Positions 39,109 to 39,685 of a stretch of DNA of 64,000 nucleotides are shown piece by piece. The position numbers and the translations under genes are program-made. The notes below the pieces were generated by a model, which worked only from the letters and a program-made list of their open reading frames with translations, was not told the origin of the DNA and did no database searches. Location of the stretch: positions 65,735-129,734 of the forward strand of contig CAJXLF010000006.1 of the NCBI GenBank assembly GCA_913055805.1, given 5' to 3'. How positions within the stretch are numbered: the stretch's first letter is position 1; each line of letters starts with the position of its first letter. The DNA comes from an uncultured Salinisphaerales bacterium (GTDB taxonomy: Bacteria > Pseudomonadota > Gammaproteobacteria > Nevskiales > CAJXLF01).

Positions 39109-39306
39109 TTGGTACATGGAAGTACCAACGCGAAGCGAAGGCTTTGGAAAACCACGCTTTTCCGAAGCCGTACCGGCGCGAGGCAGGAGCCGAATCGCCG
39201 GAAGAACTTGGTACATGGAAGTACCAACGCGAAGCGGAGGCTTTGGAAAACCACGTTTTTCCGAAGCCGTACCGGCGCGAGGCAGGAGCCGAGTCGCCGG
39301 AAGAAC
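39109..39306 (+). repeat. Two 99-bp tandem repeats inside the tRNA operon
   Basis: Copy 1 (39109-39207) and copy 2 (39208-39306) differ at only three positions. Each contains the hairpins TTGGTAC/GTACCAA and GGCTTTGGAAAA/TTTTCCGAAGCC, and a third possible stem CGGCG/CGCCG. The second copy ends three bases before tRNA-Lys. All three forward frames are open because 99 is a multiple of three, but the hairpins argue for RNA structure. Both copies should be transcribed as tRNA precursor spacer. Confidence 0.9.
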
Positions 39307-39309
39307 AAG

Positions 39310-39384
39310 GGGCTGCTAGCTCAGTGGTAGAGCAGGTGACTCTTAATCACTCGGTCCGGGGTTCGAATCCCTGGCAGCCCACCA
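39310..39384 (+). tRNA. tRNA-Lys(CTT)
   Basis: 75 bases. Acceptor GGGCTGC/GCAGCCC, anticodon loop CTCTTAA with anticodon CTT, T-loop TTCGAAT and an encoded CCA. Last gene of the operon. The last 22 bases of the gene are repeated downstream. Confidence 0.95.
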
Positions 39385-39390
39385 AACCAC

Positions 39391-39423
39391 AGCCTGCCTG
39401 TCTCCGATGGGCAGGCTTTTTTT
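39391..39423 (+). terminator. Terminator of the tRNA operon, first copy
   Basis: AGCCTGCC and GGCAGGCT form the stem, followed by seven T residues. It begins six bases after tRNA-Lys. Confidence 0.85.
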
Positions 39424-39555
39424 ATGCTTGGCGCCTCACCCCGGACAAGCCCGGGGTTGATGACGGCCATCCATGGCCGTCACCCTGCGGGCGCCTGCGG
39501 CGTCCCGTTCTGTTCCCGACAGAACGGTCGAATCCCTGGCAGCCCACCAAACCAC

Positions 39556-39588
39556 AGCCTGCCTGTCTCCGATGGGCAGGCTTTTTTT
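39556..39588 (+). terminator. Terminator of the tRNA operon, second copy
   Basis: Identical to the first copy, within the downstream 73-bp repeat. It would catch transcripts that pass the first terminator. Confidence 0.85.
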
Positions 39589-39685
39589 ATGCTTGGCGCC
39601 GCGCTTTTCGGGCGGAGTTTTTTGTTTCCGTGGCCGACATGCGAAAATGCGCGCTTTCCGTCAGCCAGCAAGCGAGTAGTGTTTC

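Follow-up and report, generated by a model that had tools for sequence, protein, structure and literature searches.

A short hairpin element beside a tRNA-Lys gene, related to the E. coli RtT repeats, that probably belongs to a family of mobile DNA with a preference for the tRNA T-loop

Here we identify 69 nucleotides behind a tRNA-Lys gene of an uncultured Salinisphaerales bacterium (positions 39459-39527 of the window, which is the whole 64,000-nucleotide stretch of DNA that was analysed) as a probable member of a family of mobile elements that are short (about 70 nt), multi-hairpin, non-coding and non-autonomous. This family is the RtT family considered as DNA, it shows a preference for the T-loop of tRNA genes, and we estimate the probability of this reading at about 0.7. 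The copies obey a position rule and occur in both orientations, empty and filled sites are found at two targets that are not tRNA genes, the hairpins covary, and the number of units varies among strains of E. coli. The tRNA-Lys element is real and one of many copies. The pattern that emerges across genomes appears to be undescribed: a search of the open literature found no description of RtT as a T-loop insertion.

Results

The tail of tRNA-Lys is repeated on either side of a hairpin-rich interval

The tRNA-Lys(CTT) gene is the final gene of a Leu-Pro-Arg-His-Lys tRNA cluster, and the features at and behind it are:

39310-39384, + strand: intact tRNA-Lys(CTT) gene (ARAGORN; Rfam tRNA, 69.5 bits)
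39363-39435, + strand: direct repeat copy 1, from the T-loop TCGA to the CCA (39363-39384), then trailer and terminator
39391-39417, + strand: intrinsic terminator of the tRNA operon, in copy 1, a 12-bp stem followed by T7
39438-39457, + strand: T-arm decoy hairpin ACCCCGG-acaagc-CCGGGGT with TC in front (sequence, folding)
39450-39458, + strand: copied 5' strand of the T-stem, ending in GGTT, the left target flank of element E
39459-39527, + strand: element E, 69 nt, with four hairpins at 39462-39481, 39483-39491, 39492-39502 and 39505-39527 (RNA model, 87.2 bits; family covariation; folding)
39528-39600, + strand: direct repeat copy 2, TCGA onward, with the tRNA tail (39528-39549) and trailer
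39556-39582, + strand: second terminator, inside repeat copy 2

The original prediction described a perfect 73-bp direct repeat that starts in the T-loop of tRNA-Lys and includes the CCA and the terminator, and this was borne out with identity at 73/73 positions, bounds of 39363-39435 and 39528-39600 and no extension on either side; the first copy takes in the final 22 nt of the tRNA, CCA included. A perfect repeat of this length, 165 bp apart, is not a product of chance, and an assembly error at the locus is unlikely because the same arrangement is found at many loci and in many genomes. Folding likewise agrees with the 6-, 10- and 9-bp stems that had been claimed for the 92 bases between the copies, giving about 7 bp at 39438-39457, 9 bp at 39462-39481 and 9-10 bp at 39505-39527, with two small hairpins in 39483-39502. 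The fold before repeat copy 2 reaches -57.9 kcal/mol over 98 nt (z = -5.2) and is more stable than 200 of 200 shuffled sequences.

Element E sits between the GGTT and the TCGA of a partial second copy of the tRNA-Lys T-arm, with repeat copy 2 as its right target flank, and a single unit is present at the locus. The 92-base interval between the repeats contains no gene, and no promoter-like site was found at the locus, where the element lies beyond the operon terminator. Since it is placed behind this terminator and ahead of the terminator's duplicate, we expect the tRNA-Lys element to have little or no function in the cell, save as a possible read-through RNA.

The element recurs behind other tRNA genes of the same genome

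The 92-base block is not confined to this locus, absence elsewhere being one of the conditions that the original prediction set for its own refutation: relatives lie beside many other tRNA genes. BLAST with the block recovered two further copies in the same genome, directly behind tRNA-Ser(GGA) and tRNA-Asn(GTT). A covariance model built from nine copies (R1) gave 17 matches in this genome, alongside 44 tRNA matches. Eleven of these 17 fall no more than 300 bp beyond the 3' end of a tRNA, where the expected fraction is 0.4% (binomial P about 4e-23). Nine tRNA genes are involved, those for Asn, Lys, Ser, Thr (two units), Phe, Leu, Gly (two units) and, twice, Gln, and the element is inverted at both tRNA-Gln genes. 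Two matches lie a little upstream of a tRNA, each interrupting a pseudo-copy, at Glu (in the T-loop) and at Ser(GCT) (in the D-loop), and four are away from tRNAs.

Two observations concern the atypical copies. At the Ser(GCT) pseudo-copy (L178 1400-1640, contig C10) the element follows a TT in the D-loop rather than the T-loop and reads CGCCTT-element-TCAGCC on the element strand. Two of the non-tRNA copies (L175 and L180, on contigs C13 and C2) share a longer left flank, GAATACATCCCTGTA(A/C)GTT, which suggests the existence of a larger, related repeat family.

A search independent of the model looked for each tRNA's own tail downstream of it (at least 16 of 20 nt) among the 41 usable tRNAs of this genome. 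Repeated tRNA 3' ends, which the original prediction had proposed looking for, were found in 10 of the 41. Eight of these have a full element E, tRNA-Val has an end fragment (GGCAATTTCG|TCGAATCC) and tRNA-Arg(CCG) has weak E-like remains, against an element at only one of the 31 tRNAs with no detected tail copy (Asn, whose tail copy has decayed; Fisher P 4e-6). Copies at other tRNAs of the genome are variously decayed, the Ser copy being 89% identical and the Asn copy almost gone, and it is therefore plausible that the perfect identity at tRNA-Lys is a sign of recency or conversion.

Compared between tRNAs, the E sequences show homology from end to end and no relationship to the tRNA itself. 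This bears on the proposal that replication slippage alone produced the locus, with hairpins stalling the fork beside the tRNA and both the tail duplication and the hairpins growing locally, no mobile element being involved. An inverted T-arm copy beside E (described below) resembles a template-switch product and the number of units varies in E. coli, both as slippage would have it. Homology of E between tRNA genes, however, refutes slippage for the element core, and identical families occur at unrelated sites, so we consider slippage alone very improbable; the flanking duplication may still be its work.

Insertion follows a rule at the T-loop

In each readable case in this genome the break in the tRNA sequence falls at GGTT^CGA, which gives GGTT-element-TCGA. 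Inverted elements obey this rule on the opposite strand (GGATT-element-TCGAACC); a T-loop of the form TTCGAA is itself palindromic. The T-arm that is cut forms part of a partial second copy of the tRNA, and the intact tRNA stays adjacent. Of 82 copies drawn from many genomes, 54 follow a tRNA at a distance of up to 300 bp, 33 of them in the orientation of the tRNA and 21 inverted, with GG(A/T)TT as the typical left flank and TCGA as the typical right flank.

At many loci the trailer side of the element also bears an inverted T-arm copy, its TCGA changed to TCTC when read along the element, as in GGGACAGAATC-TC-ACTGCC at a tRNA-Phe; its counterpart at tRNA-Lys is TC-ACCCCGG-acaagc-CCGGGGT (39436-39457). 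This motif is on the predicted side in 19/33 same-orientation and 12/21 inverted copies and on the other side in 2/33 and 2/21, counts that are descriptive, the regular expressions having been written after the pattern was seen. The inverted T-arm copy may have arisen during insertion, or it may be a scar of template switching. It counts against our preferred explanation, which does not cover it, and simple insertion likewise fails to account for the duplicated 60-100 bp of tail and trailer.

Phage-type integrases classically use the T-loop for crossover. The original prediction offered, as one possibility, a decayed insertion with attachment sites at the tRNA end. The part of this that stands is site-specific insertion at the tRNA T-loop; what lies there, in a geneless interval, is a complete hairpin element of 69 nt that belongs to a large family, not the stump of an island. 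An island or prophage scar, in which an integrase acting at the T-loop created attL and attR and the hairpins are what remains of the island ends, would share with our locus both the T-loop target and a tail duplicated as at an attachment site. Genomic islands at tRNA 3' ends differ from the element, though, which lacks an integrase and cargo (the space between the repeats is 92 bases only), lies in either orientation and has the trailer and terminator duplicated as well. Furthermore, a complete and conserved element of the same length is found at many tRNAs and in many genomes, the same element occurs at non-tRNA targets with no flanking repeats, and no relative was seen with a multi-kilobase island between repeats that ended at the termini of E. 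We therefore give the scar very little credence.

Empty and filled sites are found outside tRNA genes

The genome of a relative (G002) contains a dispersed repeat of about 430 bp with terminal inverted repeats, within which the element is present at two internal places. At the first, the empty site CTGCGTT|GCTCGTCG compares with the filled site CTGCGTT-[71 nt]-TGCTCGTCG, and at the second, CTGCGTT|GTCGTTCG compares with CTGCGTT-[71 nt]-TGTCGTTCG. The net insertion at both follows GCGTT and is 72 bp, that is 71 nt plus one T at the junction, as at T-loops. Thus at two non-tRNA targets empty and filled sites differ by exactly the element, as is expected of a non-autonomous mobile element, and neither of these insertions has a long duplication or flanking repeats. 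Precise loss could equally have produced the picture in this genome, and either way the element moves as a unit. The clean pairs are these two non-tRNA targets; at tRNA genes, no single locus was found both in an ancestral empty state and in a filled one.

The 430-bp repeat (L115-L132 of G002) has the ends AGGGAAACACTGATC...GATCAGTGTTTCCCT and up to two element copies, in opposite orientations; it is a MITE within which another element has inserted.

The E. coli rtT repeats contain a related element

The repeats at tyrT of E. coli have been known for decades. The original prediction likened the tRNA-Lys locus to a tandem duplication of the tyrT kind, an apt comparison, for the rtT repeats of tyrT and tyrV contain a related element at the same T-loop position in the opposite orientation. 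Those behind tyrV of K-12 read GGTTCGA-[inverted element]-AATCCTTCCCCCACCACCA. All three E. coli units match our models in the opposite orientation, with modest scores (14.1 bits for R1; 24.7 bits for R2, a second model made from 81 matches, with an E value of 1.8e-4 in 20 kb), and the hairpin cores of the two elements are on this basis homologous in sequence and structure.

The RtT family of Rfam (RF00391; 178-bp repeats at E. coli tyrT and tyrV) and the tRNA-Lys locus share an architecture in which an intact tRNA is followed by units of tail from the T-loop, trailer, T-arm look-alike and hairpins, as well as a related element sequence. They differ in that the E. coli element is inverted relative to the tRNA whereas the tRNA-Lys element is not, and in that tRNA-Lys has one unit. 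No match to RF00391, and so none reaching its gathering score, was found at 39300-39650 on either strand up to an E value of 10; the element of the Rfam model lies the other way round from the tRNA-Lys copy that it misses. A tRNA-Gln copy of the same genome scores 55.6 bits with this model (cut-off 45), and the Rfam family is found in 51/274 genomes of the class at an E value of 0.001. The tRNA-Lys element accordingly belongs to the RtT family in the broad sense, and is neither RtT as defined by the Rfam model nor REP/RAYT.

A query made from the rtT repeats matches 4,655 of 5,426 complete E. coli genomes. Annotated RtT units number one to four among the E. coli strains listed, strain AH50 has two tRNA-Tyr genes and zero units, and FDAARGOS_1252 has one, such that the range is 0-4 units per strain with otherwise matching flanks. 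The zero-unit strain could equally reflect a deletion between tail repeats or an ancestral empty site. The annotated E. coli gene tpr ('protamine-like protein', L069 1088-1177) falls inside the rtT element and is probably a spurious gene call.

The family is widespread and its hairpins covary

R1 has matches in 36 of 61 genomes of the order. R2 has matches in 122 of 274 sampled genomes of Gammaproteobacteria (100 of 222 genera), and in a sample of the phylum Pseudomonadota in 78 of 299 genomes, reaching another class. Copy numbers from these searches are lower bounds. R1 and R2 each take in 8-10 nt of T-loop flank at either end and consequently favour matches in T-loops, and many matches lie outside T-loops despite this. 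A strict pattern run on genome contigs returned 44 matches, nearly all of them due to chance; the one real named case is Pseudomonas sp. N040, where the element is beside tRNA-Asn and R2 scores 30.5 bits for the genome.

In the alignment of 81 matches 94.8% of cells are paired, and both partners have changed in 19 of 19 pairs. The covariation score of 0.57 compares with 0.17 in shuffles and a maximum of 0.09 in slid controls; these figures lean toward the structure, to which the alignment was fitted, but the contrast is large. Such constraint on the hairpins fits either an RNA or a DNA element that is recognised as a folded strand.

The main rival is a structured RNA gene, in which RtT is an sRNA cut from the tRNA transcript and kept for regulation, for example in the stringent response, and the repeats are a tandem duplication. 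The E. coli genome annotation has RtT as an sRNA processed from the tyrT transcript, a passage of PMC4986893 (citing Bosl and Kersten, 1991) describes RtT as released from the operons of tyrT and other tRNAs and as possibly acting in amino-acid stress, and expression and a link to amino-acid stress are also described in PMC8092127. The strong covariation of the helices is as this reading would have it, but a DNA element with hairpins that an enzyme recognises would be expected to show it too. The RNA gene is also hard to reconcile with copies in both orientations, inside an unrelated 430-bp MITE and far from tRNAs, with strains of E. coli that carry anywhere from four units to none, and with an element at tRNA-Lys that is beyond the operon terminator and has no promoter-like site that we could find. 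We regard it as unlikely, and prefer a mobile DNA element.

Known mobile systems and candidate enzymes

No transposase or recombinase, among the Y1 and IS110 enzymes searched, was tied to the element. Y1_Tnp (PF01797) is absent from three element-rich genomes (G044, G007 and G012), and no element lies beside any of 20 Y1 genes. The IS110/IS1111 DEDD transposase (PF02371) is absent from the genome of the tRNA-Lys element and from G007 and G012. As to carriers, the strict pattern had one chance match in viral contigs, in a collagen-like repeat, and a plasmid search gave weak partial matches only. Many genomes of one family of another class (f195) have at least 10 element copies each and are a possible place to seek an active mobiliser.

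Insertion sequences of the IS200/IS605 type insert after a short fixed motif ending in TT, with no target duplication of the usual kind, and have hairpin ends. The element resembles them in all of these respects, whereas its four hairpins in 70 nt and the lack of a linked Y1 transposase set it apart. With REP/BIME sequences (RAYT, TnpA-REP) it shares its short, hairpin-rich and intergenic nature, high copy number and frequent paired or tandem arrangement; it differs in that neither strand of 39459-39527 has a GTAG/GGAG foot, its target is the tRNA T-loop, and no Y1 transposase is linked. By analogy, the element might work like a REP or an IS200/IS605-type single-strand insert.

Similarity of rtT to REP/BIME sequences before gatY, rbfA and cvpA has been reported (PMC2965389). 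These regions gave no match to the element model and we read them as ordinary REPs, one of which is also found downstream of tyrT; the report hence does not anticipate the present finding.

Discussion

A model for how such loci are assembled can be proposed. A folded single strand of the element would be inserted after a TT, mostly at GGTT^CGA in the tRNA T-loop and in either orientation, which would give the product GGTT-E-TCGA with a target duplication of at most one T. Insertions into tRNA genes would survive only beside a partial tandem copy that keeps an intact tRNA, and the resulting layout would be the intact tRNA and its trailer, followed by T-stem, E, tail and trailer. The 73-bp repeats could then let recombination gain, lose and homogenise units, and homogenisation of this kind would explain the perfect identity at tRNA-Lys.

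A broader proposal, to which we would give slightly less than even odds, is that the RtT 'sRNA' is hairpin-borne mobile DNA found throughout the Pseudomonadota, which targets the T-loop in either orientation, is moved by an enzyme, and couples its insertion to a duplication of the tail that spares the host tRNA. The repeats at tyrT of E. coli would then be one case of a site-specific element living in tRNA T-loops, the best conserved loop sequence in biology, and many annotated 'RtT sRNA' genes may be copies of a mobile element. The current small-RNA annotation of the tyrT repeats offers no account of why the tail of the tRNA is repeated. The mobile-element reading opens to direct test which enzyme moves the element and how essential tRNA genes can take an insert without the death of the host.

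A different hairpin-rich unit lies close by in the same tRNA cluster, where 39109-39306, between tRNA-His and tRNA-Lys, is a 99-bp tandem duplication (97% identical). A relative of this unit (79%) adjoins the SRP RNA gene elsewhere in the genome (C5:106402-106535), and the element array behind tRNA-Ser is about 0.3 kb away.
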